33,006 nt of DNA from Prolixibacteraceae bacterium (GTDB taxonomy: Bacteria > Bacteroidota > Bacteroidia > Bacteroidales > Prolixibacteraceae). Position numbers and translations under genes: made by a program. Location of the stretch: contig CANJNY010000045.1 of assembly GCA_947475715.1 (NCBI GenBank), forward strand, positions 1 through 33,006, in the 5' to 3' direction. Positions 15,119-30,272 of this stretch are shown in pieces (the stretch's first letter is position 1; every line of letters starts with the position of its first letter). The notes under the pieces are model-generated. The model made no database searches and was not told the DNA's origin. It saw only the letters and a list, made by a program, of their open reading frames with translations.

Positions 15119-17350
15119 TTAGAAATTTCCTTTTATGGTAAGATATATATTTCGGCCTGGGGCATTGATCCCACTGCCAAAGGTGCGGTATTGTGTATCT
15201 AAAATATTCTCCATTCCGGTCTGAAAAGTTATCGAATTATTCAGTTTATATGAGCCACGTAGATTGATGGTATACCAGGCTGGCATACCCATTGTGGTTG
15301 CATATGCCTGATTGTCCTCCCCTCCCGGATCTACACAGTAATCTGCCATTCTTTTCCATCCATTATAGTTGATAAAGAAGTCTGATTCAAATCTTTTATT
15401 CATGTAGCTAAGCTGAAAACGGGCCATTAAGGGATTGATATGATTCAGGGGTGTTTCACCTGTGGCAGTCATTAACCTTCCGTGTGCATAGTTCAAAGCG
15501 AATGAAAACCTGAATTTTTCGCTCAGTAATGAGGTCAAATTGGATGAAAACCCATAGATATATGCTCTACCTTTATTCTGATTGGATACTACTTTACACA
15601 TGAATCCATCATAGACTAAAGAATCATTCCCGTTGTACCGATCATTTCCGGTTACAATAGCATCCATGAATTGAGTAAAATAGATAGAATTCTCCCATTT
15701 TGTTTGCACATTATAAACCTTGGCGATACCTATTTCATAATTGATCGTCCGCTCCGGCTTTAGATTGATATTGGGTACGATCACTGTTCCGGGAGCTGGT
15801 GCAAATATTTTGCTTAGGTCGTCCACATTCGGTATGCGAAAACCGGTTGAAATCAATGCCGAAAGTTTTAAATCATCCGATGGTGAATGAATCAGTCCAA
15901 TATTTCCCGACCATAAGGGTGTTTTTTGGTCGATTGTTGTAAAAGGAAGATTGAACTGTGTTGGCAGATCCACCAGGGTCGAATGCAACACTGAATAACC
16001 GGCACGTAGTCCATCGTTGAGCGTAAGTTTTTCATTTATTTTCCAGGTGTGAGAGATGTAGGCAGCAACGTTGTTCATCCGGTTAACTCCGTCAGGGAAG
16101 CGGGTGTCTAATTTCCCAAATATTTCAGATATAATATCTTCAGTATGTGCCGATGATTTAAGGAAGTTGAATTGCATGTCGGCTCCAAAGCGAATATTAT
16201 GTGCTTTTATATTTCTTTGCAAATCTAAATTAGCACCAATAACCCCTACATTCTCAATTCTGTTTTTCAGTATATTACTCCCGAAATTTCTATTGTGACG
16301 GCTCTCTTCTATGGCCTGGTAATTCAGGCCAATATGGATGTTCCGGAATTTAGCCGCCGGGTTATTTCGATTCATATTGTAAGCTGTAAGGAAGCGTGTT
16401 TGTGGCCCATAATACCATTCTGCACTTTTTAATTTACCGCCTGACAGATCGGTTAGCCGATCGTAACGCGGTACATTACCAGAGGTTGAGTATTGAATAT
16501 TGACACTGTGTGCCAAATATTTATTTTGCTGAAAAAGAAATTTCTGCAAAAAATCTGATTGGGTATATCCTGAAGCTCTCTGAAGAAACGGATTGTCGTT
16601 TTTGACCAGGGAATCCTTATTGCCAAACCTTTTTACAAACAAAGGGCGCTCTCCGTAACTATTTCCATAAAATGGATTCTGACTTTTCCCCCCCATCAGG
16701 TCTCCAAATTTTGACCATGTGAATGCTGTAAGTATCCCAAATTTTTTTGTGCCATAATTTAAATCAATGTGCGCAGTCCTTTCATTATCTGCACTACCCA
16801 CCCGACTCATTGCATTTATCTTTAAGTTGCGATCGTTACCATTTCGTGCAAGCATTGGGTCTTTGGTATACAGATGGATTACTCCGCCCAGGGCATCACT
16901 GCCGTATATTGTCGATGAGGGGCCGAAAAGAATCTCTACGCGGTCAAGGGAATTAATATCAGTTTTAATTATGTCCTGAAGATGCCCTGCCCGATAAATA
17001 AGATTGTTCATCCTGACACCGTCGATGACCAGCACATTCTGGTTGGCACTGAATCCGCGAATGTTGATGTCACCACCTCCAAGCTGGCTTTTCTGAACCG
17101 CCACGTTTCCTGTATTTGAAAGCAGATCGGCAGTCGATTGCGCCTGAAAATTGGAAATCTCAACACCGTCAATTATCTGAACTTGTTGGGCAACATCTCT
17201 TTTTGATTCAGCTATTTTATTGGCCGAAAAAGTGATTTCATTTAAATTAATCAGCCGAACCGGTATGGTATCACCCCTTTCAATGGTTTGGGCAGTGGAT
17301 TGAACTATCCCAATTAATTCAAATAGAATTAAAAATAGATAAGGTTTCAT
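15119..17350 (-). CDS. TonB-dependent outer-membrane receptor, possibly of the haem/haemoprotein type
   Basis: A 743-residue protein from the ATG at 17350. This start gives a clean signal peptide (MKPYLFLILFELIGIVQSTAQ), whereas the upstream in-frame ATG at 17503 would add 51 unrelated residues before it. The plug domain (~60-190) shows DLLSNTGNVAVQKSQLGGGD, INIRGFSANQNVLVIDGVRMNN, VEILFGPSSTIYGSDALGG and VIHLYTKDP. The rest is the 22-strand barrel, ending ...YLTIKGNF with the terminal aromatic that outer-membrane beta-barrels need. A GFRIPNVDDLSKIF segment followed by VPNINLKPE resembles the FRAP and NPNL boxes of haem/haemoglobin receptors (FRIP here, not FRAP), so haem is a candidate ligand but is not established. 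There is no SusD partner, so it is not a SusC-type system. A small membrane-anchored protein is encoded upstream on the same strand. Confidence 0.88.
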   Translation of the reverse strand: MKPYLFLILFELIGIVQSTAQTIERGDTIPVRLINLNEITFSANKIAESKRDVAQQVQIIDGVEISNFQAQSTADLLSNTGNVAVQKSQLGGGDINIRGFSANQNVLVIDGVRMNNLIYRAGHLQDIIKTDINSLDRVEILFGPSSTIYGSDALGGVIHLYTKDPMLARNGNDRNLKINAMSRVGSADNERTAHIDLNYGTKKFGILTAFTWSKFGDLMGGKSQNPFYGNSYGERPLFVKRFGNKDSLVKNDNPFLQRASGYTQSDFLQKFLFQQNKYLAHSVNIQYSTSGNVPRYDRLTDLSGGKLKSAEWYYGPQTRFLTAYNMNRNNPAAKFRNIHIGLNYQAIEESRHNRNFGSNILKNRIENVGVIGANLDLQRNIKAHNIRFGADMQFNFLKSSAHTEDIISEIFGKLDTRFPDGVNRMNNVAAYISHTWKINEKLTLNDGLRAGYSVLHSTLVDLPTQFNLPFTTIDQKTPLWSGNIGLIHSPSDDLKLSALISTGFRIPNVDDLSKIFAPAPGTVIVPNINLKPERTINYEIGIAKVYNVQTKWENSIYFTQFMDAIVTGNDRYNGNDSLVYDGFMCKVVSNQNKGRAYIYGFSSNLTSLLSEKFRFSFALNYAHGRLMTATGETPLNHINPLMARFQLSYMNKRFESDFFINYNGWKRMADYCVDPGGEDNQAYATTMGMPAWYTINLRGSYKLNNSITFQTGMENILDTQYRTFGSGINAPGRNIYLTIKGNF

Positions 17351-17661
17351 TTTTTTAGAATTGCTATGCTGTTCATATTTTATAACTTGTGAATTACCTT
17401 GTAAAAGGATAGCACGATCCTGAACCCGCAGTTTTCCGGAAATTGGGAAGCTGTTTTCAACTATAAATACCATGAAAACTTTGAAAGTAAGACTATTAGG
17501 CAAAGTCGTATTTTAGGTTTTATTTTCTCGAGCGTCATAACGTCCGATCACTTTGCGTAGCATACCAGGCAAAATCGCGAATAGATGCTAAGTATAAGAA
17601 TTGCCTCTTACCCCCTTCCTTTGGAGGGGTTGTGGGGGAGGTTGCCTGAAGCAATAAATAA
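17351..17661. other. Intergenic region upstream of the TonB-dependent receptor gene
   Basis: No gene is supported here. The frame of the receptor stays open to 17503, but the extra residues look non-coding. I looked for cobalamin, TPP and FMN riboswitch core motifs and recognised none. The only structure found is the GC-rich inverted element at 17604-17641. Confidence 0.5.
17604..17641. repeat. GC-rich inverted element resembling a dispersed Bacteroidota intergenic repeat
   Basis: CCCCTTCC (17612-17619) and GGAGGGG (17623-17629) can fold around TTT with one bulge. An outer C-rich run (17604-17615) faces GGGGGAGG (17634-17641). It is markedly more GC-rich than its surroundings. Sequences of the form CCCC-TCC-TTT-GGAGGGG next to GGGGGAGG are, from memory, common dispersed intergenic repeats in Bacteroidota genomes. 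Only one copy is in this window. It may also help terminate the upstream minus-strand gene that stops at 17662. Confidence 0.45.
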
Positions 17662-18397: not shown

Positions 18398-19753
18398 ATG
18401 GATAATAAATTTAATCGCAGGTCATTTGTCAGTGCTGCTTCCATCGCAGGTGCAGGTGTGGCTCTGGGGTATCCAACTATCTCGTTTGCTTCCGGTGGTG
18501 ATCAGTTAAAACCGGCTATTCTTGGCGGACCGATGACCCATTCAGAAATATTTCCTGCTTGGCCGGTTATCAATCAAAATGAGGAAAAGGCATTAAATGA
18601 AGTTTTAGAAAGTAAAAAATGGTGTCGGCTGGGGAGTAATAAGGTCGATTCATTTGAGCAGGAATATAAGAAGCTTACCGGTGCAAAACATTGCCTTGCA
18701 ACTTCAAGCGGTACAAATGCTTTATATACAGTGCTTGGAGCTCTTGATATCGGCCCGGGTGATGAGGTTATCATACCGGTTTATACTTTTATAGCTACCT
18801 ATAATGTTATTGCACTGAACTATGCATTGCCGGTTTTTGTGGACACCGATATAGAGACATTTCAGATCGATGCCAATAAGATCGAAGCTGCAATCACAAA
18901 GCAAACAAAAATCATTATGCCGGTACATATTGGCGGATCACCGGCTGATCTGGATAAAATTATTGAAATTTCCCAAAAGACGAAGATTCCGGTGATCGAA
19001 GATGCATGTCAGGCCCATCTTGCAGAGTGGCGTGGCAAAATGGTTGGAACACTCGGTCTGGCCGGCGCCTTCAGTTTTCAGGCGAGTAAAAACCTTAATT
19101 CAGGCGAAGGGGGTGCAATTCTGACTAATGACGAAAAATTTGCCCAGGCTTGTTATAGTTTCCATAACCAGGGACAGGGGGGGCGGGATATCAGTTATAA
19201 CTCCGGCTCCATTGGAACCCGGGGCACCAATGTCAGGTTATCGGAATTTCAGGGTAATTTATTGCAGGCTCAGATGACCCGGGTTGTTGAACAAACAAAT
19301 ATCCGAACAGAAAATGCAAATTACCTTACAAAAATGATGAACCAGATTCCAGGAATTACAACTGCGAAGCTTTATGAAGGGACTACCAGAAGTGCTTATC
19401 ATTTATATATGTTCCGTTACGACAAAAATCATTTTGCAGGGCTGAGCCGTGAAAAATTTCTCAATGCCCTTACAAAGGAGGGTATCCCATGTTCTGAAGG
19501 ATATGGAATGATGAATAAAGGAGCTTATGTGACCGGGCTGGCTAAGAATAAACACTACCTCAATATTTATGGCGAAAAAACGATGAATCATTGGCTGGAG
19601 CGGAATCAATGCCCCCAGAATGACAAACTCACCTCGGAGCAGAGCGTATGGTTCTTCCAGAATATGCTCCTGGGTTCCAAAAATGAAATGGAGCAAATTG
19701 TGAAGGCTATTCAGAAGATTCAAAAGTATGCGGCCGAAATCAATAAAATTTGA
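18398..19753 (+). CDS. Exported (Tat-type signal) DegT/DnrJ/EryC1/StrS-family PLP aminotransferase
   Basis: A 451-residue protein from the ATG at 18398; the frame is also open to a TTG two codons earlier. Residues 5-32 form a twin-arginine-like signal: NRRSFVSAASIAGAGVALG, with R7-R8 before a small-residue hydrophobic stretch and a likely cut near SFAS. The rest is a fold-type I sugar aminotransferase: SSGTNAL (PLP phosphate site, ~103-109), GPGDEVIIPVYTFIAT, VIEDACQAHLAE with Asp202 facing the PLP ring nitrogen, and SFQASKNLNSGEGG with Lys231 as the Schiff-base lysine. All key residues are present. The family moves an amino group between glutamate and a keto sugar or cyclitol and is normally cytoplasmic. 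Tat export would fit an enzyme that must fold with its cofactor first. It heads a co-directional cluster and has a signal-free paralogue at 24249. Confidence 0.88.
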   Translation: MDNKFNRRSFVSAASIAGAGVALGYPTISFASGGDQLKPAILGGPMTHSEIFPAWPVINQNEEKALNEVLESKKWCRLGSNKVDSFEQEYKKLTGAKHCLATSSGTNALYTVLGALDIGPGDEVIIPVYTFIATYNVIALNYALPVFVDTDIETFQIDANKIEAAITKQTKIIMPVHIGGSPADLDKIIEISQKTKIPVIEDACQAHLAEWRGKMVGTLGLAGAFSFQASKNLNSGEGGAILTNDEKFAQACYSFHNQGQGGRDISYNSGSIGTRGTNVRLSEFQGNLLQAQMTRVVEQTNIRTENANYLTKMMNQIPGITTAKLYEGTTRSAYHLYMFRYDKNHFAGLSREKFLNALTKEGIPCSEGYGMMNKGAYVTGLAKNKHYLNIYGEKTMNHWLERNQCPQNDKLTSEQSVWFFQNMLLGSKNEMEQIVKAIQKIQKYAAEINKI

Positions 19754-19793
19754 TTGAATCATTCAATAAAAGAAAAATTATAATCGTTTGGAT

Positions 19794-21722
19794 ATGACCA
19801 TAAAAAAATTGTTGTTCACCTTCTTGGCATTAATCCCATTTTTCACCTTCTCACAGTCTGGTTATCTGGTCGGAACTTCACAGCAGGGAATTGAGCCCGA
19901 CCAATCGTTGATCTCCCTTCACCTGGGTGGATACGGAGCCCCCAAAGAGGGACGCTTTACACTGAATTGGGTTGCAAGGGGATTGGTGGGGGAGGTGAGT
20001 TCGGTTTTCGGGTTCAACGATCACTTATTTGGTTTGAATCAAGGTGGATTATTCTCGATGAATCCATCCGGAAATAGTCTGAACCGGGAGAAAATTGGAA
20101 CTGCTGACGATATAAAATCGATAGCCGGTTTCATGAATGATCTTTATGGAATTAATAGTAAGAGTGAACTGTTTAGGACCAAATCAAAGGGTGGGCAGAG
20201 ATGGATGAAAATTGGGACAGTTGATTCATCGGTAGTTGCAATGGCGGTTTTAAACAATAAATTATACGCGGCCAACGGACACGGTACAATGTGGTCAACG
20301 GAATTAAAAAAATCCCCAATTGATTGGACCAAATCTGAAACGGTCGATAAAATAGTGTCTCTTTCAGCAAATAACCGAAAGCTTTACGCACTCTGTTCAG
20401 AAGGTGTTATTTATCAGTGTGAACCGCTAAGTTCAGAGACGCGGTGGTTAAAAGCTGCCTATAAAAATGGAGAGACTATTAAAGAGGATATCAGGCAAAT
20501 CGCAGTTGTTAATGGGAGGTTATATGGAATTGGCAAGGATAATATACTTTACCTTGGCGAGCATCGTACCGAAGGGAATCTTACTGCAAGGGCTATGGCT
20601 ATCAAGGGCGATGAAAAAACCGTGGTGATCCTCAATGTTGATGTTTGTGGTCTTAATGACACTTTTATCGGGTTATTAAAACAAGAGGTATTTATTAAGC
20701 ATCATATTCCGGCGGAAGCTGTTTTTGTCAATTCAACGCATACTCATTTTGCTCCGGTCACTCAGAATTGGCTGACATGGCAGGAAGCAAATCAACGACC
20801 GGATAGTGTATTCCTCTATTCAACAGTGAAAAACGGGATACTTAACGCAATTGATAATGCGTTAAAGGCGATGGTTCCTGCCGAATTGTCTTTTGGCAGA
20901 GGTGCTGCAGATATTGGTTATAACAGGAGCCTGAAAGATCACCCCGAGATTTATGACAATGCAGTGGATGTTATTAAGGTAAATTATATGGGGCAGAATC
21001 GTGAAAGTTTCCTGTTCATGGCCGCCTGCCACCCGGTATTTAGCACGGCAGGCACGTTGAATTACACGATCAGTGCCAATTATCCCGGAGTGGCACGCAA
21101 ATTAGTCGAAGAGCGGACCGGAACTTCCAATTCATTGTTCCTGCAGGGGACAGCCGGAGATGTGAATCCCAGAGATAACGGTGAATTTATTACGGGTGAG
21201 AAACTTTCCAATGAGGTGATCGCAGTGCTGGCTAGACCGATGACTAAGATTACCGGACCGATCACCTGCTTCCTCGATACAATTAATTTTGCAGTTTCCC
21301 CATGGACCAAGGAGGCTATTGCAACTTACCGTGCTGAAAATATTGACAAGACAGGTGATGTCTATGCTGAGAAAAATGTAAAATGGTGTGACCTGATGTC
21401 TAAATATATTCGCGAAGGGACGATGCCTAAATTCATGCCGGTGTATGTGAATACGATCAATATTGGGAACTGGAAACTTCTGGGGTTTTCGAGGGAAACT
21501 ACAACCGGGTATGGCCTGGGTGTTAAAAATTTCTGGCCCGATAAACTGATCTCTGTTGCAGGTTATACCAACGATGTTTCGAGTTATCTTCCTACTCATA
21601 TGCACATCGAAGCGGGTACCTATGAAGGGAAAGATTCATTTTTCTGGTATGGCATGCCCAATATTTTCCCTGTAAACGTTGATGAAACTATTCTCAATCG
21701 TGTAAAATCTCTTGAGCGGTAA
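19794..21722 (+). CDS. Secreted neutral/alkaline ceramidase-like amidohydrolase with an inserted beta-propeller
   Basis: A 642-residue protein from the ATG at 19794, with a signal peptide of ~20 residues (MTIKKLLFTFLALIPFFTFS). Residues ~262-642 match the neutral ceramidase-type domain: LTARAMAIKGD, VVILNVDVCGLN, FVNSTHTHFAP with H316 and H318 as expected zinc ligands, MAACHPVF with H413, and FLQGTAGDVNPR. In most relatives the first strand (here GIEPDQS...GGYG, ~32-48) runs almost directly into the ARAM strand. Here ~200 residues intervene, made of about five repeats of the pattern hydrophobic-x-N-x-x-LY-x-x-x-x-x-x-x-(L/I)-(F/Y), for example VLNNKLYAAN and VVNGRLYGIGKDNILY. They look like a small tachylectin-like propeller. 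The family hydrolyses amide bonds of N-acyl compounds, but the substrate here is unknown. The gene starts 40 nt after the Tat-type aminotransferase. Confidence 0.8.
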   Translation: MTIKKLLFTFLALIPFFTFSQSGYLVGTSQQGIEPDQSLISLHLGGYGAPKEGRFTLNWVARGLVGEVSSVFGFNDHLFGLNQGGLFSMNPSGNSLNREKIGTADDIKSIAGFMNDLYGINSKSELFRTKSKGGQRWMKIGTVDSSVVAMAVLNNKLYAANGHGTMWSTELKKSPIDWTKSETVDKIVSLSANNRKLYALCSEGVIYQCEPLSSETRWLKAAYKNGETIKEDIRQIAVVNGRLYGIGKDNILYLGEHRTEGNLTARAMAIKGDEKTVVILNVDVCGLNDTFIGLLKQEVFIKHHIPAEAVFVNSTHTHFAPVTQNWLTWQEANQRPDSVFLYSTVKNGILNAIDNALKAMVPAELSFGRGAADIGYNRSLKDHPEIYDNAVDVIKVNYMGQNRESFLFMAACHPVFSTAGTLNYTISANYPGVARKLVEERTGTSNSLFLQGTAGDVNPRDNGEFITGEKLSNEVIAVLARPMTKITGPITCFLDTINFAVSPWTKEAIATYRAENIDKTGDVYAEKNVKWCDLMSKYIREGTMPKFMPVYVNTINIGNWKLLGFSRETTTGYGLGVKNFWPDKLISVAGYTNDVSSYLPTHMHIEAGTYEGKDSFFWYGMPNIFPVNVDETILNRVKSLER

Positions 21723-21898
21723 TTTTTTAACTTTAGCAGCAAAATCCCAGCTTAAAACCAATGGGCAACGAACTGAACGTGTCACAACTCAGGAGCAGAT
21801 TTTTGGGCCTGAATTACATCGCATCGAGCGTGATTCATATTTTAAAGTATAATTGTTTTGTTAGAATTTTTTTTATCTTAATTTAGAAGTTGATTACT

Positions 21899-23167
21899 AT
21901 GAGTAGATTAAAGAAAATATATAAGGACGTTTCAAATCCTATAATTATTATTGGAACCTTGTTTTTTGTCTTTGGTTTTATAACCTGGTTAAGCGCTATT
22001 TTGGTCCCTTATCTGAAAATTGCCTGCGAATTAAATAATTTTCAATCTTACCTGGTTGCATTTTCATTTTATATCGCCTATTTCTTTATGTCGGTACCGG
22101 CCGGGTGGCTACTGGAATATACCGGTTACAAGAAAGGGATGGCTGCAGGGCTTGTCATCATGGCGATAGGATCGGTGATCTTTGTGCCGGCAGCTTTGAC
22201 AAGAACTTATGGATTATTCCTCACCGGATTATTTATTCAGGGGGCTGGGATGGCGCTATTGCAGACCGCGTCAAATCCTTATGTGACCATTATCGGTCCG
22301 ATTGAGAGTGCTGCCCGTCGGATAAGCATTATGGGGATTTGTAACGGAGTAGCCGGAGTTATCGCCCCTGCAATTCTGGGATTTATTACCCTCGATGGTG
22401 CGGATGAAATCGTTCAGAAGATAACCACAATGAGTCCCATGCAAAAAGGTGTGGAACTGGATGTCCTTGCATCACGGGTGATTTTACCCTATGTCTTGAT
22501 AATGATTTCATTATTGGTTCTGGCAATTTTTCTCTATTTTTCTAATCTCCCTGATATCGACGGCGAAGAGGAAAATGCGATGGTTGATGACGGAGGAGCT
22601 GATAAAACACATATTTTTCAGTTTCCTCATTTATTACTGGGTGTTTTTGCAATTTTTTTATATACGGGTGTTGAGGTGATCGCAGGGAATACAATCATCA
22701 GTTATGGAGTCTTCCTGGATATTCCGATTGCCACGGCAAAATTTTTCTCCTCCTTTACAATTTTTGCAATGCTTGTTGGGTATGTTATCGGGATTATTAC
22801 AATTCCGAAATATCTTACTCAGAAAATGGCACTGATCATATCTGCTGTGCTGGGTTTAATATTTACCATATTGGCAATACTTACCCAAGGCTTCCTCTCC
22901 GTGATGTTTATCGGATTACTGGGATTGGCCAACTCGTTGATGTGGCCATCTATCTGGCCATTGGCAATTACAGAGTTAGGCCGTTTTACGAAAATAGGAT
23001 CTTCCATGATGGTTATGGCGATCTCAGGCGCAGCGGTAATGCCCCTGTTGTATGGGCGGATAGCAGATGTCACAACGCCTAAGAGTGCCTATTGGATAGT
23101 TATTCCAATTTATCTCTATGTCCTCTTTTTTGCAATGAAGGGGCATAAAATGAGGGGCAGAGTGTGA
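21899..23167 (+). CDS. FucP-like sugar permease of the major facilitator superfamily (FHS type)
   Basis: A 422-residue polytopic protein from the ATG at 21899 (a TTG three codons earlier is also in frame). About 12 membrane helices are visible, in two bundles of six split by the charged loop DIDGEEENAMVDDGGADKTH. The first helix FFVFGFITWLSAILVPYLK resembles the FucP/fucose:H+ symporter start (FFxWGFxxxLNxILxPxLK), and GWLLEYTGYKKGMAAGL occupies the conserved loop between helices 2 and 3. LLQTASNPYVTIIGP strongly matches the LQxxANPYxxxLG motif of the FucP/GlcP/NagP branch. The expected job is proton-coupled import of a sugar or amino sugar across the inner membrane. Its place between a secreted amidohydrolase and a cytoplasmic dehydrogenase/aminotransferase pair suggests it imports their shared intermediate. 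The exact sugar cannot be read from the sequence. Confidence 0.85.
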   Translation: MSRLKKIYKDVSNPIIIIGTLFFVFGFITWLSAILVPYLKIACELNNFQSYLVAFSFYIAYFFMSVPAGWLLEYTGYKKGMAAGLVIMAIGSVIFVPAALTRTYGLFLTGLFIQGAGMALLQTASNPYVTIIGPIESAARRISIMGICNGVAGVIAPAILGFITLDGADEIVQKITTMSPMQKGVELDVLASRVILPYVLIMISLLVLAIFLYFSNLPDIDGEEENAMVDDGGADKTHIFQFPHLLLGVFAIFLYTGVEVIAGNTIISYGVFLDIPIATAKFFSSFTIFAMLVGYVIGIITIPKYLTQKMALIISAVLGLIFTILAILTQGFLSVMFIGLLGLANSLMWPSIWPLAITELGRFTKIGSSMMVMAISGAAVMPLLYGRIADVTTPKSAYWIVIPIYLYVLFFAMKGHKMRGRV

Positions 23168-23180
23168 GAGATTTGTCATG

Positions 23181-23199
23181 ATCCGGAATAAATCCGGAT
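23181..23199. repeat. Short hairpin between the permease and dehydrogenase genes
   Basis: ATCCGG (23181-23186) and CCGGAT (23194-23199) form a 6-bp stem around AATAAAT. It has no U-run right after it and is weak as a terminator; it may only tune read-through to the next gene. Confidence 0.3.
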
Positions 23200-23209
23200 A
23201 TATTATTCA

Positions 23210-23217
23210 TATATTTG
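23210..23217 (+). promoter_or_regulatory. Possible internal promoter -7 box ahead of the dehydrogenase gene
   Basis: TATATTTG fits the Bacteroidota -7 consensus TAnnTTTG exactly and lies 26 nt before the ATG at 23244. No TTG sits at a suitable distance upstream, so this is only suggestive of a second transcription start within the cluster. Confidence 0.3.
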
Positions 23218-23243
23218 ATACGCCATTAAAATAATTTTTTTAT

Positions 23244-24236
23244 ATGAAAAGAGTAGCCGTAGTAGGTTTTGGGTTTATGGGGATGACCCATACATTGAAT
23301 ATACTTCAGAATGCAGATTTGGAGTTAGTCGCTATCGTTGATAAAGATCCTGAATCAATAGCGAAAAATCTTTTTTCTCCTGGGGGTAATTTTTCAACAG
23401 GGAACATTGATCCTGAGGTGTTGCAAAATATTCGGAAATATTCCAGCTTGCATGATTGTCTTCATCAGGAGGATCTTGATGCCGTTCATATTTGTGTCCA
23501 CACTGAGCTTCATTATGAAATGGCAAAGCTGGCTCTGATGCATGATAAACATGTTTTGCTTGAGAAGCCTTTCACCCTTGACATTGACCAGGCTGAAGAA
23601 CTTATTCAATTGGCAGAGAAGAATAACAGGATACTTATGATTGCTCATGTTGTGAGGTTTATGCCCCCATACCAGAAACTTAAGCATTTTATCGATTCCA
23701 ACGAGTTTGGAGAACTCAAATTCCTTTCAATGACAAGGATTTCAGGGGTACCTGGATGGGGAGAGTGGACCGAAAAACAGGTTACAAAGAGCTCCGGAGG
23801 GGCACTCTTCGACCTCAATATTCATGATATTGATTTTGCCAGTTATGTTCTCGGATCACCTTCGTCGATTAAATCAAGTTACCTTCCCGGAATGCTAAGT
23901 GAGAATGATTATGTTAGTGCGATGTGGAGCTATTCCGACAAGCCCGTTCGGGTTAAAATAGAGGGTGGCAACACCTTTCATTCTCATTTCCCCTTTCAGG
24001 CGGGGTACATGGCTCAGTTTGAAAAGGCAAGTGTACTTTACAGCTCATCCGGAGGGGATGTTATCCGGATTGCCGACAATACAAGTATTCGCGAAATCCC
24101 GGCTGGTGATGCAGGGGAGGGTTATACCAACGAGATTGCCTATTTTGCCAATTGTCTTAAAAATAATACCCAACCGACAGAGTGTATGGCTGCCTCATCG
24201 CTTGAATCGATTAAATTGTGTTATAATCACCTTTAA
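23244..24236 (+). CDS. Gfo/Idh/MocA-family NAD(P)-dependent dehydrogenase
   Basis: A 330-residue cytoplasmic protein with no signal. The Rossmann fold starts at once with VAVVGFGFMGMTH (G-x-G-x-x-G dinucleotide motif) and an acidic D33 after the second strand (LELVAIVDKD), which favours NAD over NADP. DAVHICVHTELHYEMAKLAL leads to LLEKPFTL, the family's EKP motif whose lysine is catalytic. GGALFDLNIHDIDFASYVLG supplies the D-x-x-x-H-D-I-D substrate/catalytic motif. The family oxidises hydroxyls of sugars, inositols and related cyclitols to ketones, or does the reverse. The stop is 12 nt before the next gene, a DegT/StrS aminotransferase, so the pair is almost certainly co-translated. Dehydrogenase plus aminotransferase is the standard pair for converting a hydroxyl to an amino group, or the reverse, on a sugar ring. 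Confidence 0.87.
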   Translation: MKRVAVVGFGFMGMTHTLNILQNADLELVAIVDKDPESIAKNLFSPGGNFSTGNIDPEVLQNIRKYSSLHDCLHQEDLDAVHICVHTELHYEMAKLALMHDKHVLLEKPFTLDIDQAEELIQLAEKNNRILMIAHVVRFMPPYQKLKHFIDSNEFGELKFLSMTRISGVPGWGEWTEKQVTKSSGGALFDLNIHDIDFASYVLGSPSSIKSSYLPGMLSENDYVSAMWSYSDKPVRVKIEGGNTFHSHFPFQAGYMAQFEKASVLYSSSGGDVIRIADNTSIREIPAGDAGEGYTNEIAYFANCLKNNTQPTECMAASSLESIKLCYNHL

Positions 24237-24248
24237 TAACAACTAATT

Positions 24249-25472
24249 ATGAAACAGAATCTGGCAATTAACGGAGGGCCAAAGACAATAGATAAGAATT
24301 TTGAGTGGCCGGTTTATGACCAAACCGATGTTGATGTTGTTGCGGAAATCGTCCGCAGTGGAAAGTGGGGAAATCCCGATTGCGGGGACAAGGTTGAGGC
24401 CTTTGAGCATGAGTTTGCCTCTTTCTGCGGAACCAAATATGCGATGACTTGTGTCAATGGGTCTGTCGCATTACGGCTGGCCTTAATCGCATGTGGTGTG
24501 AAACCGGGAGATGAGGTTATCGTTCCTCCGTACACTTTCATTGCAACTGCATCCATTGTGATCGAGGCGAATTGTGTTCCGGTATTTGTCGATATTGATC
24601 CGGATACCTATAACATCAGCCCTGAACAAATTGAAAAAGCGATTACAAAACGGACTAAGGCTATTATTCCGGTCCATTTTGCCGGTCAGGCCTGCGATAT
24701 GGATGCTATAATGGCGATTGCAAAGAAATATAATTTGCGTGTTATTGAAGATTCTGCTCACGGCCATGGTGCTGAATACAAAGGAAAAATGCTCGGAAGT
24801 ATCGGTGATGCGGGATGCTTTAGTTTCCAGTCTTCCAAAAACCTCACCAGCGGCGAAGGGGGAATAATTGTTACCAATGACGAAGCTTTGTATGATATGA
24901 TGAATTCGCTTCGTAATGTTGGACGTGTCAAAGGGGGACAATGGTATGAGCATCACCATGCCGGATGTAATTACCGGATCACCCAGATGCAGGCAGTGCT
25001 GCTATCCAATCAGCTTAAAAATCTGAAAGATCAGACTGCCCGCCGCCACGAAAACGGAACTTACCTTAACTCTTTGCTCGGGAAGATTGAAGGTATAAGA
25101 CCTTTGGCAAGAGGGGTGGGAGAGACGATCCACTGTTATCACATCTACATTTTCAGATACGATAAATCAAAATTTAATAATCTTTCAAAAGTGGAATTTT
25201 CGAAAATGCTTGCAGCGGAGGGGGTTCCGTGCTTCATGGGGTATCCTGAGCCATTGTATAAGCAACCACTCTTTCAGCAGAAAAACTTTATGTGTTATGC
25301 AATTCCCGAAGATGTTGATTATTCGACGGTTTATTGCCCGGTAACTGAAAAGGCATGCCATGAAGAGGCTGTTTGGATTTTCCAGAATACAATGCTCGGA
25401 ACAAAGGAGGATATGGAGAAGTTTGCGGAGGCAATTCTTAAAATTCAAAAGGCTTTCCTTTCCGATTTTTAA
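24249..25472 (+). CDS. Cytoplasmic DegT/DnrJ/EryC1/StrS-family PLP aminotransferase
   Basis: A 407-residue protein starting directly in the enzyme fold (MKQNLAINGGPKTIDKNFEW), with no export signal. Visible family parts are CVNGSVALRLAL (cofactor phosphate loop), PGDEVIVPPYTFIATA, VIEDSAHGHGAEYKGK with Asp168 against the PLP ring, and FSFQSSKNLTSGEGG with the Schiff-base Lys197. The late segment VPCFMGYPEPLYKQPLF is typical of the substrate side. Length and motifs are those of a complete enzyme. It is clearly homologous to the exported aminotransferase at 18398 but well diverged, so the two probably act on related compounds in different compartments. It begins 12 nt after the dehydrogenase and would add an amino group to, or take one from, the keto product of that enzyme. 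StsC/NtdA-type reactions are the closest known analogy; the real substrate is unknown. Confidence 0.88.
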   Translation: MKQNLAINGGPKTIDKNFEWPVYDQTDVDVVAEIVRSGKWGNPDCGDKVEAFEHEFASFCGTKYAMTCVNGSVALRLALIACGVKPGDEVIVPPYTFIATASIVIEANCVPVFVDIDPDTYNISPEQIEKAITKRTKAIIPVHFAGQACDMDAIMAIAKKYNLRVIEDSAHGHGAEYKGKMLGSIGDAGCFSFQSSKNLTSGEGGIIVTNDEALYDMMNSLRNVGRVKGGQWYEHHHAGCNYRITQMQAVLLSNQLKNLKDQTARRHENGTYLNSLLGKIEGIRPLARGVGETIHCYHIYIFRYDKSKFNNLSKVEFSKMLAAEGVPCFMGYPEPLYKQPLFQQKNFMCYAIPEDVDYSTVYCPVTEKACHEEAVWIFQNTMLGTKEDMEKFAEAILKIQKAFLSDF

Positions 25473-25521
25473 GGTCGATCATAGACTGCTCGTACTTAAC
25501 TAAAAACGGATCATCAGGCCA

Positions 25522-25875
25522 ATGATGAAAAATGTATTCTTACCGATAGTATACCCGTTTCTGTATTTCACCTTTGCGCAATCCAATTATTTCCAAGGGA
25601 CGGCTTAGACCTTTATTGAACCTGACCAATCGCTGATTTCCCTCTCCCTTACAGGTTACGGCTACCCAGGAGAGGGGCGATTTTAACTCCAATTGGTAAA
25701 CCGGAAAGCCGTTCCGGAGGCTTCTGCTATTGGAGTATTAAATGGCAAGCTCTATATTGTCAGCATAGGTGAATTGTGTTCAATAAAAAAGAGAGTCAAC
25801 AAATCAGGAGTCACTGAATTTCAGATATTACAGGGTAATAAAATCTGTAAACGAGCTTTGCGATGTGGCTCATAA
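25522..25875 (+). pseudogene. Decayed N-terminal copy of the ceramidase/propeller gene
   Basis: From the ATG at 25522 one frame reads a signal-like start (PIVYPFLYFTFAQSNYFQGTA), is interrupted by TAG at 25606-25608, continues FIEPDQSLISLSLTGYGYPG, is interrupted by TAA at 25684-25686, then continues VPEASAIGVLNGKLYIVSIG. The intact gene at 19794 has FFTFSQSGYLVGTSQQGIEPDQSLISLHLGGYGAP and, in step, VSSVFGFNDHLFGLNQGG. The alignment holds through both stops, and the first stop sits opposite a Gln codon, consistent with CAG to TAG. The copy therefore includes the same start of the propeller insertion. Homology fades near 25830, where another frame takes over. None of the ceramidase catalytic residues remain, so this is a pseudogene. 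Confidence 0.75.
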
Positions 25876-26053
25876 ATCCGGGAAAGTTCCTTATTCCAGA
25901 GGAGTGCACTTATCTTACCTTACCCCTAAGGAGCTTGGTTTGGCAGCGAAATTATCCTTATAGGGTAGTGCCTCCGGAATTGTTTTGTTCACGGGAAATA
26001 AAATGGATGAAACGTATTGGAAATATATGGAAAAGGAATTTATTAACCAATGA
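25787..26053 (+). pseudogene. Unidentified gene remnant (C-terminal piece) fused to the ceramidase pseudogene
   Basis: A second plus-strand frame is open from 25787 to TGA at 26051-26053 with a single internal TAG at 25961-25963. It reads protein-like: SVNELCDVAHKSGKVPYSRG, then VHLSYLTPKELGLAAKLSL, stop, GSASGIVLFTGNKMDETYW, and KYMEKEFINQ. The alternation of helix and strand (for example the strand SGIVLFTGN) would suit the end of a TIM-barrel enzyme, but I do not recognise the family. It overlaps the tail of the ceramidase remnant in another frame, as expected if a deletion joined two genes. It ends 10 nt before the epimerase lipoprotein start. The lack of a start codon and the internal stop make it non-functional. 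Confidence 0.5.
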
Positions 26054-26063
26054 AACTACCGGA

Positions 26064-27533
26064 ATGAGATTGATAAACGGTTACTGCTGGACCCTTACTC
26101 TTTGGGTTTTGTTCTCGTGCTGCGAAGAAAAGACGAACAGAAGTGCAAAGGTATTATCCGGAGATTATTGGAAGAGTCAGGCCCTTAATGATATAATTCC
26201 CAACTGGACAAAATTTGCTCAGGATAAGGAGTCGGGCACTTTTTATACAACGCTTGATTCATTATGGCAACCAACAGGGGATCAGAATAAATATCCGAGC
26301 ATGATTTCCAGGCATCTCTTCAGCTATTCGGTGTCTTATCTCCTTTCCGGGAATGAAGATTACCTTGTTATCGCAGATAGCACAGTTAAATGGCTTCTCA
26401 ATCAGGCCTGGGATAAAGAATTTGGTGGATGGTTTGACTCGGTTGACGGAAAAGGAAATCCGGTTCAGACGACAAAAACCACATTTGTTCAGGTATATGC
26501 AATAACCGGTCTTGTTATGTATTATTTCGTTACCCATGATAAAACGGTTCTGCGATATATTGAAAAGTCCAATGAACTGCTTGAGCAAAAGGTCTGGGAT
26601 AAGGTTGCCGGCGGGTATTATAATACGATGAACAGAGACTGGACCATTTTGGATAGTAATAAGGATTTTGCTTCACAGATGACACCGGTCTCAGGCTACT
26701 TGTTATATCTCTATCAGGCTACAAAGGAAAAAAAATACCTCGATCAGACTAAACGGATTCTCGATGTTACAACCTATAATATGACAGATAACGATTCGGG
26801 ATGGATCCTTGAAAGTTATGATTGTAATTGGAGATATCTGGCAGGCAAAGCAGTAGAAAGTGAAATTAATGTCGGGCACAATATCGAAGTAGCATGGATG
26901 CTTTTACGAAGTTATCTTCTGACCGGAGATAAAGATCAACTGGAGGCTGCGAAAAAAATATCCTCAAAGATCGAATCCTCATTTGTTTTTAATAATCACA
27001 ATATCTGGCTGACCTCAACTTCAAGATACTCCATTAATCAAGGCAGTCGTACCTATTGGTGGGTGCAGGCCTATGGAAATATGTTTAAACAGTATTTATA
27101 CCGTATTTTTAAGGATGACCAATACATTGATGCCTTTCAACGGGGTGGTGAATTTTGGGATTCCGGATTTTTGGATAAAAGACACGGAGATACCTTTTAC
27201 AGTGTCGATTCAACCGGAAGTAATAAAGATGCTCACAAGGCAGACCGATATAAAACCTCTTACCATAGTATGGAACAATGTCTTATAAACTATCTTTCTC
27301 TTAGTAGCTGGACGAATAATGAACCCACCAAACTTTATTTCAGGATTAACTTATCCGTTGAAGGGGAACTCCTTTTTCCTGTTATTCTGGAAGATGAGAG
27401 TTTGAAAATCAGTAAAGTAGTCATCGAAAACATAGATAAAACATCTCTTGTTAATAGCTCTCAGTCCATTACGCTTCCTGCTCTTTGTAATAGCAGGATA
27501 ATAATTGAAATAATTAATCCGAATAAGTTCTAA
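26064..27533 (+). CDS. Lipoprotein of the N-acylglucosamine 2-epimerase (AGE) family
   Basis: A 489-residue protein from the ATG at 26064. This start gives a lipoprotein signal (MRLINGYCWTLTLWVLFSCC, lipobox LFSC). Earlier in-frame codons run through the overlapping pseudogene and look non-coding. Residues ~30-400 form an alpha/alpha barrel of the AGE type: SRHLFSYSVSYLL, WDKEFGGWFDSVDGKGN, GGYYNTMNRDW, INVGHNIEVAWMLLRSY with the characteristic GH-x-I-E-x-AW, YWWVQAYGNM, and YKTSYHSMEQCL near the end. These carry His residues that act in acid/base chemistry in the family. The final ~85 residues (from about KLYFRINLSVEG) look like a small extra beta domain. AGE relatives epimerise or isomerise N-acyl or plain sugars, usually in the cytoplasm; here the enzyme should face the periplasm or the outside. 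It follows the amino-sugar cluster on the same strand. Confidence 0.82.
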   Translation: MRLINGYCWTLTLWVLFSCCEEKTNRSAKVLSGDYWKSQALNDIIPNWTKFAQDKESGTFYTTLDSLWQPTGDQNKYPSMISRHLFSYSVSYLLSGNEDYLVIADSTVKWLLNQAWDKEFGGWFDSVDGKGNPVQTTKTTFVQVYAITGLVMYYFVTHDKTVLRYIEKSNELLEQKVWDKVAGGYYNTMNRDWTILDSNKDFASQMTPVSGYLLYLYQATKEKKYLDQTKRILDVTTYNMTDNDSGWILESYDCNWRYLAGKAVESEINVGHNIEVAWMLLRSYLLTGDKDQLEAAKKISSKIESSFVFNNHNIWLTSTSRYSINQGSRTYWWVQAYGNMFKQYLYRIFKDDQYIDAFQRGGEFWDSGFLDKRHGDTFYSVDSTGSNKDAHKADRYKTSYHSMEQCLINYLSLSSWTNNEPTKLYFRINLSVEGELLFPVILEDESLKISKVVIENIDKTSLVNSSQSITLPALCNSRIIIEIINPNKF

Positions 27534-27590: not shown

Positions 27591-30272
27591 ATGAAAACTG
27601 TATTTTACTCATTGTTAATGCTTTGTATTGTTTCTAATTCTTTTGGACAGAATGGGAAAAGATCCAAAGAATATCAGCGCTTTCAAAAAGAGGAAGCAAA
27701 AACTTCACGAAGCAATGCCGGTTCTGCGTTTAAAAAGAACCTGGAGATGCAAAGTGATGATGAACTTCGTCTTAACCGTTCAGAGAGTGACCAATTAGGC
27801 TTTGTTCATGATAAATTTCAGCAATATTTTAAAAAGGTAAAAGTTGAAGGGGCTGTTTACACGGCTCACTCGCGCAATAGTGTTATTGAAAATTATTCGG
27901 GTGAATTCAAAGGGATCAAAAATTTTGATGTAACGCCAGCCATTTCTGATGTTCAGGGATTACAGAATGCTATTTCTCATGTTGGTGCCAAGGTATACGC
28001 ATGGGACAAAAGTGTGAGTGCCGGTTATCCCGACTATCAATCCCCCAAGGGAGAGCTGGTTATTATAGGTGGAGCGGCAGATGACAGTCTTGCATTAACC
28101 CTTGCCTGGAAATATGATATTTTCGCGGCAGATCCCCTTTATAGGGCTGAAGTCTTTATCGATGCAAAGACAGGAGCTTTTGTAAAAGCAAATCATTTAA
28201 TTCACAATACCAATACTTCTGCATCAGGGGCAACGCTTTTTAACGGAACACAAAGTTTTACTGCCGACTTGACCGGATCAACTTATTCGCTTAGTCAGAG
28301 TTCGAGCGGTGGAGGAGTACAGACATACACGCTTAAGAACGGAACCAATTATACTTCGGCTGCTTCCATTACCTCTGCAAGTGCAAATACATGGGTCGAC
28401 TCAACTGCAGTGCAGGCTCATTGGGGAGCGGAACAGACCTGGTCGTTTTATTCAACCAAATTGGGCAGGAATTCATTTAATAATACCGGGGGGATCATAA
28501 AATCGTATGTCCATTATTCTACAAAATACGTCAACGCCTTCTGGGATGGATCACGAATGACCTATGGCGATGGTGATATTACTCAGGGCTACCGTCCATT
28601 GGTCTCCCTCGATATTTGCGGTCATGAGATCACCCATGGTGTTACTACTTATTCTGCCAATCTTACTTACAGCAACGAATCAGGGGCCTTAAACGAATCT
28701 TTTTCAGATGTTTTCGGAGAATGTATCGAAAACTATGCCAAAGGAACCAATGACTGGATGATGAGCTGTGATATTGGGATTAATGGTGCTTGTGGTGCTT
28801 TCCGGAATATGGCAGATCCAAATCAATATGGTGATCCCGATACCTATAAAGGTACCAACTGGTATACCGGCACTGGGGATAATGGTGGTGTTCATTACAA
28901 TTCAGGTGTTCAGAATAAATGGTTTTATGTACTTACCACAGGAGAGTCAGGGACTAACGACAAGGGATATGCTTATGCAGTAACAGGAATCGGCATTGAT
29001 AAAGCTGCTAAGATCGCCTATCGTAATCTTACTGTTTATCTTACTGCTTCGTCCAATTATGCGGCAGCAAGGGCCGGAGCGATCCTGGCAGCAACCGATC
29101 TGTACGGCGTAGGGTCCGCCGAAGTAACAGCAACCACCGAGGCATGGAATGCCGTTGGTGTTTATGCTCCCGTTGCCGATACCACCGCTCCAACGGCTCC
29201 TGTGCTCACTGCAGGTACAAAAACACTGGTATCTATTGCCCTTAGCTGGACTGCGGCTACCGACAACGTAGCTGTTACCGGTTATGATGTGTTTGTAAAT
29301 GGAACCAAAAATAATACGACCAATTTAACGGCAAGGACCTATACCGTGTCGGGTTTAACTGCAGGGACTGCATATTCAATTTATGTAGTTGCAAAGGATG
29401 CTGCAGGAAATACCAAATCATCCAATACGCTCTCCGTCTCTACTACCGGAGGAGTATCCGTAGAAACTTCGGTTTTGGGAACTTTTTTTGAGACTAATTT
29501 CGAAAGTTGGATCCCATCGAGCACGACAAATTGTGTCTGGACCAGTAATGCAACCTATGCTTACGAGGGTTTGGGCTCAATAATGATCCGCTCCAGTAAT
29601 ACCAGTGTGACTACTCCTACCTTAGCGTTGTCAGGAAATACCCAGGTTGAGGTTAAATTTTACTTTACCGCCACAGGTATGGAGGCTAATAAGACGTTTG
29701 TCTTAAGTTCCAACAGTAATAACGGAAACAGCTTTACTACAATTGCAACTTTTACTTCGGCGACAACTGCTTCGGGAACCAAATTTGTAACTGATAAAGG
29801 ATTTTATGTTGCAACCGTTACATTGAATTCAACTTCATTTAATAATACCTACAGATTCAGAATACAGAATAAGGGGGCTAACACGACCGATGTCATTTAC
29901 ATTGATGCTTTCACGGTCAAGGGTAGGACGAATACTTCAGCGACAGGAACTGTCGTTTCACTGGCAGCTGCAATTAAACCTTTGTTACCGCTTAAAAGCG
30001 CGTCAATCTCGGAAGATAATTTATTAAATAATATCGCTGAAGCTGAGAAAATATCATTGTATCCTAATCCGGTGTTAAATACCTTGAATATATCCTCAAA
30101 TGTCAAAATCAAGGTTGTCCGAATCTTCACTTTAACCGGATCGATGGTTCAGAATAGTCTTGATAATGCGGATAATCTAAGCATGGATCTTTCCGGACTG
30201 GCAAAGGGAGTTTATATCGTTGAGGTTGTTACCGACAAGGGAAGTACAGTCAATAAGATCATTAAGCAATAA
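27591..30272 (+). CDS. T9SS-secreted thermolysin-like (M4) metalloprotease
   Basis: An 893-residue precursor with signal peptide MKTVFYSLLMLCIVSNSFGQ. Residues ~50-205 are a pro-region with FTP/PepSY-like parts (VEGAVYTAHSRNSVIENYSGEF; PLYRAEVFIDAKTGAFV). The catalytic domain spans ~215-530: DICGHEITHGV (HEITH, 345-349; zinc ligands H345 and H349, catalytic E346), SNESGALNESFSDVFGE (third ligand E369), and DNGGVHYNSGVQNKWFY, where the Asp-His pair D430/H435 matches thermolysin's transition-state stabilisers. All active-site residues are present. A fibronectin type III domain follows (~535-620), then a beta-sandwich (~630-785), and a type A T9SS tail (~822-893: ISLYPNPVLNTLNISS, LSGLAKGVYIVEV). 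The enzyme should be secreted and self-activated to degrade extracellular protein. A strong hairpin follows its stop. Confidence 0.95.
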   Translation: MKTVFYSLLMLCIVSNSFGQNGKRSKEYQRFQKEEAKTSRSNAGSAFKKNLEMQSDDELRLNRSESDQLGFVHDKFQQYFKKVKVEGAVYTAHSRNSVIENYSGEFKGIKNFDVTPAISDVQGLQNAISHVGAKVYAWDKSVSAGYPDYQSPKGELVIIGGAADDSLALTLAWKYDIFAADPLYRAEVFIDAKTGAFVKANHLIHNTNTSASGATLFNGTQSFTADLTGSTYSLSQSSSGGGVQTYTLKNGTNYTSAASITSASANTWVDSTAVQAHWGAEQTWSFYSTKLGRNSFNNTGGIIKSYVHYSTKYVNAFWDGSRMTYGDGDITQGYRPLVSLDICGHEITHGVTTYSANLTYSNESGALNESFSDVFGECIENYAKGTNDWMMSCDIGINGACGAFRNMADPNQYGDPDTYKGTNWYTGTGDNGGVHYNSGVQNKWFYVLTTGESGTNDKGYAYAVTGIGIDKAAKIAYRNLTVYLTASSNYAAARAGAILAATDLYGVGSAEVTATTEAWNAVGVYAPVADTTAPTAPVLTAGTKTLVSIALSWTAATDNVAVTGYDVFVNGTKNNTTNLTARTYTVSGLTAGTAYSIYVVAKDAAGNTKSSNTLSVSTTGGVSVETSVLGTFFETNFESWIPSSTTNCVWTSNATYAYEGLGSIMIRSSNTSVTTPTLALSGNTQVEVKFYFTATGMEANKTFVLSSNSNNGNSFTTIATFTSATTASGTKFVTDKGFYVATVTLNSTSFNNTYRFRIQNKGANTTDVIYIDAFTVKGRTNTSATGTVVSLAAAIKPLLPLKSASISEDNLLNNIAEAEKISLYPNPVLNTLNISSNVKIKVVRIFTLTGSMVQNSLDNADNLSMDLSGLAKGVYIVEVVTDKGSTVNKIIKQ

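Follow-up and report, generated by a model that had tools for sequence, protein, structure and literature searches.

A conserved Bacteroidota locus joining a Tat-signal DegT-type aminotransferase to a ceramidase-like amidohydrolase, with a possible role in the use of N-acylated amino sugars

Gene content and conservation of the cluster

We analyzed a 33,006-nt stretch of contig CANJNY010000045.1 from a Prolixibacteraceae bacterium (assembly GCA_947475715.1; host genome, 5.77 Mb in 315 contigs), referred to here at its full length as the window. Positions 18398 to 27533 hold six genes on the same strand (Table 1): an aminotransferase of the DegT/DnrJ/EryC1/StrS family with a twin-arginine translocation (Tat) signal (AT1), a secreted neutral-ceramidase-type amidohydrolase (CER), a sugar permease of the major facilitator superfamily (MFS), a Gfo/Idh/MocA-type dehydrogenase (GFO), a second DegT/StrS aminotransferase lacking a signal (AT2), and a lipoprotein of the N-acetylglucosamine (GlcNAc) 2-epimerase family (AGE). 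A first-pass annotation, made without database searches, had described these six co-directional genes, and the open reading frame (ORF) positions and family matches agreed with the places and families that it gave. It had also suggested checking whether the six families co-occur in other genomes; five of them do (AT1, CER, MFS, GFO, and AT2), and AGE does not.

Table 1. Features of the aminotransferase-amidohydrolase cluster and the adjoining DNA
Feature	Position	Strand	Remarks
AT1, Tat-signal DegT/DnrJ/EryC1/StrS aminotransferase	18398..19753	+	451 aa; PF01041, 312 bits; pyridoxal phosphate (PLP) lysine
CER, secreted neutral-ceramidase-type amidohydrolase with propeller insert (about residues 55-260)	19794..21722	+	PF04734
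MFS, FucP/GluP/NagP-type sugar permease	21899..23167	+	alternative start TTG at 21890
Perfect inverted repeat ATCCGGA-N5-TCCGGAT between MFS and GFO	23181..23199	+	7-bp arms; terminator-like by pattern only
GFO, Gfo/Idh/MocA-type dehydrogenase	23244..24236	+	family match
AT2, DegT/StrS aminotransferase without signal	24249..25472	+	12 nt after GFO; PLP lysine
CER2 relic, N terminus of a second CER gene	25522..25818	+	with stops; 51.5% identity over 99 positions to CER2 of L045
GHL10-family relic, C-terminal part	25769..26044	+	with stops; 67% over 52 positions to the L040 protein (PF02638)
AGE, GlcNAc 2-epimerase-family lipoprotein	26064..27533	+	PF07221, 104 bits; neighbor outside the conserved set

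To describe the surroundings of CER homologues, we tallied 19 loci in which CER is at least 50% identical to that of the window (the window itself and L039 to L056, L-numbers denoting loci of relatives and G-numbers genomes), together with two distant loci, L057 and L058. The 19 loci represent 17 genomes (L039 and L051 share one metagenome-assembled genome [MAG], and L041 and L047 share another), and 17 loci came from a scan of a named collection, in which the relatives carrying the locus were Bacteroidales MAGs and Mariniphaga; Mariniphaga sediminis SY21 (L048) was the single named isolate in that scan to carry AT1-CER. CER at 60% identity or more was found in 5 of 100 other genomes among the relatives, and at an E value of 1e-60 or lower it was found in 3 other genomes when 393 genomes of the order, the host included, were searched.

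MFS is the next gene after CER in 12 of the 19 loci, with one gene between them in L040. In the remaining seven, either the contig ends in CER or within 0.5 kb of it (L042, L048, and L050) or different genes follow (L043, L051, L052, and L056), GFO and AT2 lying 8 kb downstream in L043. All seven loci that continue past MFS (window, L040, L044, L045, L046, L049, and L055) have the GFO-AT2 pair adjoining it, inverted onto the opposite strand in L046 and L049, and in four of these seven (L040, L044, L045, and L055) an AraC-type gene on the other strand separates MFS from GFO. This gene has been lost from the window, where the inverted repeat of Table 1 occupies its place; its best match in the host genome is 41% identical. 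An AT1 gene encoding a protein at least 69% identical to that of the window lies just upstream of CER in 8 of the 19 loci (window, L039, L040, L042, L044, L045, L047, and L048), as a fragment at the contig edge in L040 and with one intervening gene in L047, and remoter AT1 relatives occur near CER in L043 (39%) and L052 (45%). All five genes are under purifying selection, with pN/pS values of 0.06 to 0.25 (three relatives each; synonymous sites are near saturation). Because the first five genes recur together elsewhere under purifying selection, we concluded from these comparisons that AT1-CER-MFS-GFO-AT2 is a conserved locus whose grouping reflects more than chance. It is an arrangement of known families that is itself new.

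The DNA between AT2 and AGE has a different history. In L040 and L045, AT2 is followed by an intact second CER gene (CER2) and then by a gene for a GHL10-family protein, and in the window the gap at 25522 to 26044 is the deletion scar of these two genes, a feature that the first-pass annotation had missed. What is left is the start of CER2 and the later part of the GHL10-family gene, both broken by stops, the latter including a further block of 58% identity over 40 positions; measured against the DNA of L045, about 2.4 kb has gone between the two relics and about 0.2 kb more within the GHL10 piece. The ORF originally assigned to AGE keeps its family, whereas its start at 25863 opens inside the scar and the frame reads through it. 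We therefore rejected the long N terminus of that ORF as a real domain, and a start at about 26064 (MRLINGYCW..., with a lipobox-like LFSCC) appears more likely from the sequence.

AGE homologues (E value of 1e-30 or lower) were present in 9 of 101 genomes, the host among them, and were missing from all five other genomes whose CER reaches 60% identity. The closest relatives of AGE (59% in G006, 41% in G100, and 34% and 31% in G082) have no core gene in their neighborhoods. Since the AGE homologues do not lie beside core genes, the membership of AGE in the set was not upheld, and a conserved set of six genes was rejected. An epimerase may nevertheless recur as an optional partner of the locus, because in L042 the gene immediately before AT1 also belongs to the AGE family (PF07221, 264 bits; 20% identical).

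The inverted repeat showed no excess over shuffled sequences, promoter and terminator patterns in the window were at or below shuffled counts, and Bacteroidota-type TAnnTTTG boxes numbered 25 in the window against 34 expected, which lends them no support; the boxes ahead of GFO and AT1 were irregular among relatives. A search for a gene remnant between CER and MFS gave no convincing match.

The flanks of the cluster are of a different kind, with a TonB receptor gene on the opposite strand at 15119 to 17503 and a gene for an M4 peptidase with a type IX secretion system (T9SS) tail at 27591 to 30272. The nearest models to the TonB receptor are those of hemoglobin/transferrin receptors, with scores below their cutoffs. 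Farther upstream, two very large proteins (3993 to 8918 and 9127 to 14865) combine sortilin/Vps10-like, GEVED, and CHU_C immunoglobulin (Ig) domains; the second ends in a T9SS sorting tail, and the two members of this tandem pair are likely related to each other.

Predicted export and active sites of the enzymes

CER matched PF04734 narrowly above the curated cutoff (33.2 versus 32.1 bits), and the NCBIfam equivalog for neutral ceramidase, NF041649, matched neither the CER of the window nor that of L058. When a profile of 38 ceramidase-like proteins was compared with the PDB at an E value of 0.001 or lower, only neutral ceramidases (2zws and 4wgk) were returned. An AlphaFold model of CER built from 38 diverse rows had a predicted local distance difference test (pLDDT) score of 89.5 and a predicted TM-score (pTM) of 0.88 (an earlier model from 18 close rows, with a pLDDT of 61.7, was not used), and in a Foldseek search with this model the first four matches were neutral ceramidases, 4wgk, 2zws, and 2zxc among them, with E values of 1e-20 to 3e-19. 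Residues H316, H318, R378, H413, E568, Y598, and Y610 of CER align to H97, H99, R160, H204, E411, Y448, and Y460 of 2zws, which we take to be the zinc and catalytic residues of neutral ceramidase; across the 38 rows, H316, H318, H413, and Y598 are invariant and R378, E568, and Y610 are conserved in at least 90%. CER also carries a Sec-type signal by which it is predicted to be exported.

The model confirms the propeller insert that the first-pass annotation had noticed in CER: its strand list contains about five four-stranded blades, with block pLDDT values of 81 to 95 over residues 61 to 260, and propellers come next after the ceramidases in the Foldseek list, two of them lectins (fishelectin and tectonin 2). 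Sugar binding by the insert can only be guessed at.

AT1 and AT2 both belong to the DegT/DnrJ/EryC1/StrS family, matching PF01041 and carrying the PLP lysine, which was present at its column in 34 of 35 aminotransferase rows. Dehydratases of this family carry His where the aminotransferases carry the PLP lysine. Because both window proteins have Lys there, they fit aminotransferases rather than dehydratases. The twin arginine of AT1 was found in all 23 AT1-family rows (22 by pattern and that of L073 by eye), and TatC is encoded in the host genome; with the signal kept in orthologues and the Tat machinery present, AT1 is a probable Tat substrate. These observations support the two-compartment layout proposed at first sight, in which the predicted pathway begins outside the inner membrane and ends in the cytoplasm. 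In the PDB, AT1 scored best with 3-amino-5-hydroxybenzoate (AHBA) synthase (213 bits) and then with inosose aminotransferases (195 to 197 bits), and AT2 scored best with 2-deoxy-scyllo-inosose and scyllo-inositol aminotransferases (241 to 243 bits), its lead over nucleotide-sugar enzymes being small (243 versus 212 bits). The enzymes matched best act on sugars or cyclitols that carry no nucleotide, which hints that the substrates of AT1 and AT2 may likewise be free sugars or cyclitols.

MFS scored above the cutoff of the gluP model TIGR01272, and its best match was the NagP model NF046060, at 364 bits, below the cutoff of 625. The best NCBIfam match of GFO was UDP-GlcNAc 3-dehydrogenase (120 bits; cutoff, 450) and its second best was IolG (TIGR04380; 105 bits; cutoff, 355), so that GFO was not assigned as an inositol dehydrogenase.

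Neighboring genes and related modules

The two distant loci, L057 (5373 to 10619) and L058 (7234 to 13465), have the order MurQ, AT1, a kinase-like gene and CER in either order, and then MFS. Their MurQ proteins passed the PRK05441 subfamily cutoff (301 and 311 versus 168 bits), and the kinase-like gene of L057 encodes a BadF-type ATPase (PF01869) that scored 107 bits to NagK. Compared with the window, AT1 of L057 and L058 is 58 to 64% identical and CER is 38 to 39% identical, because of which the job of AT1 seems to have been the better kept. MurQ and a kinase for N-acetylmuramic acid (MurNAc) were not found in the window locus, and no MurQ or kinase-like gene was found in any of the 19 nearer loci (E value of 1e-10 or lower); the AT1-CER-MFS front end therefore seems to have been combined with more than one kind of back end.

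Other neighbors are hydrolases and catabolic isomerases. Alpha-L-fucosidase genes lie beside CER in L045, L046, L053, and L054; L047 has a heparinase II/III-like gene that only just passes its cutoff (24.1 versus 24.0 bits); and L052 has genes for KduI and glucuronate isomerase near CER. When 395 genomes of the phylum were searched, 2 besides the host had AT2 orthologues at 71 to 75% identity; one of these genes (L064) is directly followed by a glycoside hydrolase family 2 (GH2) gene with an exo-beta-D-glucosaminidase Ig domain, and the other (L061) lies 3.5 kb from a GH20 gene. L043 (1501 to 19953) places CER in a long row with GHL6, DUF2961, M55, and creatininase genes, further aminotransferase and Gfo genes, PIG-L, and an amino-acid permease. 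On another contig of the host genome, L065 (1317 to 8845) joins a 42% identical aminotransferase relative to a GH2 gene of the same kind, an ROK kinase gene, an MFS gene, and a Gfo gene, possibly as a paralogous amino-sugar cluster.

A first reading of the window had excluded a standard polysaccharide utilization locus (PUL). Family matches of the window proteins revealed no SusC/SusD pair in the cluster, and to that extent the statement held; it was too strong for the locus as a whole, as SusD-family genes lie beside L047 and L058 (by BLAST only in L058). The families of the window cluster, by Pfam- and NCBIfam-type matches, likewise include no nagA or nagB, as had been stated. Two nagB matches above the family cutoff lie on other contigs of the host genome (nagA was not searched for there), and some related loci carry SusD, MurQ, or a NagK-like gene. 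Taken together, the neighbors favor 2-amino-sugar glycans without singling out one substrate, and the MurQ, NagK-like, alpha-L-fucosidase, GH2, GH20, and SusD neighbors point, in line with the earlier suggestion, to the use of an N-acylated amino sugar or of a glycan related to one.

The pairing of a Tat-signal DegT gene with a ceramidase-like gene extends further. Among 12 distant Tat-DegT loci in Bacteroidota (44 to 49% identical to AT1; L059, L060, L062, L063, and L068 to L075, from 11 genomes), a ceramidase-like gene is directly adjacent in five (L060, L063, L069, L070, and L075) and lies four genes away in L059; the available sequence of the other six (L062, L068, L071, L072 with only 4.6 kb, L073, and L074) contains none. 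A rough estimate, made without simulation, from 24 flanking slots and at most about 10 ceramidase-like genes per about 4,000 puts the adjacencies expected by chance below 0.1. L059 and L062 show a set of partners other than the ceramidase type, with two to three genes of the amidohydrolase-2 family beside the Tat-DegT gene. We found no paper joining DegT with ceramidase in the open-license PMC literature, where absence carries little weight.

Proposed function, alternatives, and known systems

We propose, with about even confidence, that the five genes are conserved as a unit for the catabolism of an N-acylated amino sugar (or aminocyclitol) that is freed from glycans of the envelope or matrix. 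After export by the Sec-type route, CER would cleave the N-acyl amide with its zinc site; AT1, exported by Tat with its PLP, would act in the periplasm, converting the liberated amino group to a ketone or running the exchange in the opposite direction; MFS would import the product; and GFO and AT2, a cytoplasmic pair that looks cotranscribed, would interconvert hydroxyl, carbonyl, and amino groups on the free sugar and pass a common hexose to central metabolism. AGE would not be a fixed step. Nitrogen would thus probably be removed from the modified sugar outside the cell and the process completed inside.

Several observations weigh against this proposal. A periplasmic transaminase would need an amino acceptor in that compartment, where none is known here. 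GFO passes no NCBIfam equivalog cutoff, the TM-scores of CER to the ceramidases are moderate (0.45 to 0.48 over whole chains), the MurQ proteins of L057 and L058 fall below the TIGR00274 equivalog cutoff, and the kinase-like gene of L058 scores only 30 bits to NagK and has no Pfam hit. AT1 is absent from L041, L046, L050, L054, L055, and L056 despite available upstream sequence (the genome of L041 carries AT1 in L047), and because several CER loci with upstream sequence have none, the AT1 step may be optional. Finally, a single substrate for all of the loci is unlikely, since their neighbors differ.

The locus could instead scavenge peptidoglycan or muropeptides, with CER acting as an amidase on MurNAc-linked amides or on MurNAc and with AT1, MFS, GFO, and AT2 (or MurQ and the kinase in L057 and L058) processing the sugar. 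In both of those loci MurQ is directly beside AT1, with the NagK-like gene and MFS, which resembles murTKQ as described in the available part of the published account (PMC10465942). The best match of MFS to NagP and the M55 and PIG-L genes of L043 point in the same direction. Nevertheless, we consider this explanation unlikely, as the 19 loci closest to the window lack MurQ and the kinase-like gene, no muropeptide hydrolase was recognized among the scanned neighbors, and DegT enzymes have, to our knowledge, no step in MurNAc use. We think it just as improbable that the locus serves the catabolism of an aminocyclitol (an inosamine, rhizopine-like), GFO and AT2 being an inositol dehydrogenase and a scyllo-inosose aminotransferase working in reverse and CER a deacylase, even though the best PDB matches of AT2 and the second-best match of GFO are of that type and an IolG-MosB pair has been published (PMC6668481, from the portion available). 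The lead of those matches of AT2 is small, and the fucosidase, MurQ, GH2, and GH20 neighbors fit sugars better.

Most characterized DegT enzymes are biosynthetic, and a pair of the GFO and DegT types, GnnA and GnnB, makes 3-amino sugars in lipid A synthesis, both of which speak for the biosynthesis or remodeling of a glycolipid head group of the cell itself, to which the aminotransferases would add amino groups. The best NCBIfam match of GFO agrees with such a role, but the core includes a sugar permease, and the scanned neighbors, with their hydrolases and catabolic isomerases, included no recognizable glycosyltransferase, so that we judge it very unlikely. Breakdown of ceramide or sphingolipids by CER as a true ceramidase is the least probable of these alternatives, and highly so: CER has the fold and the active site, but its sequence lies at a distance of the 20 to 27% class, it contains the propeller insert, its partners are of the sugar type, and it gives no hit with the NCBIfam model for neutral ceramidase.

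Returning to the use of N-acylated amino sugars, we raise a broader idea tentatively, as a possibility that we doubt more than we believe. A Tat-exported, PLP-loaded DegT enzyme and a neutral-ceramidase-type zinc amidase might work jointly outside the inner membrane, removing or exchanging the nitrogen of N-acyl amino sugars, as a two-gene module that, with varied downstream genes (GFO-AT2 or MurQ-kinase), would be a front end of general use for unusual amino sugars, without nagA/nagB logic. If this is right, sugars would lose their amino groups before import, and a function would be available for two large and mostly unassigned Bacteroidota groups, the exported DegT aminotransferases and the ceramidase-like amidases that do not act on ceramide. 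The locus would also serve to mark the utilization of rare N-acyl amino sugars in lake and sediment habitats, the source of many such MAGs.

The statement that the cluster has no described counterpart was overdrawn. Bacteroides glycoside 3-oxidation (BT_2158/BT_2159) employs Gfo/Idh/MocA enzymes in glycan use, partly exported, and is not known to involve an aminotransferase; GFO scores 28 and 52 bits against the corresponding NCBIfam families, which have cutoffs of 750 and 650. PvdN of Pseudomonas, a fold type I PLP enzyme located in the periplasm, is exported like AT1 as proposed here; it is not known to belong to the DegT family and differs in its reaction, an oxidative decarboxylation on a siderophore. 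IolG and MosB, like GFO and AT2, are a Gfo/Idh/MocA dehydrogenase and a DegT aminotransferase, and they swap a hydroxyl for an amino group on a cyclitol (rhizopine, scyllo-inosamine); unlike the window locus, the pair is biosynthetic and cytoplasmic, and the available text mentions neither an amidase nor an exported aminotransferase with it (PMC6668481). The murTKQ genes of Tannerella forsythia, which scavenge MurNAc, resemble L057 and L058 in grouping a transporter, a kinase, and MurQ, whereas the window has neither MurQ nor the kinase and the portion of the account available does not mention AT1 or CER for murTKQ (PMC10465942). Finally, CER shares its fold and its seven active-site positions with neutral ceramidase (2zws from P. 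aeruginosa and 4wgk from human) and is set apart from it by falling outside the NCBIfam ceramidase model, by a propeller placed after the first strand, and by the company of sugar genes.

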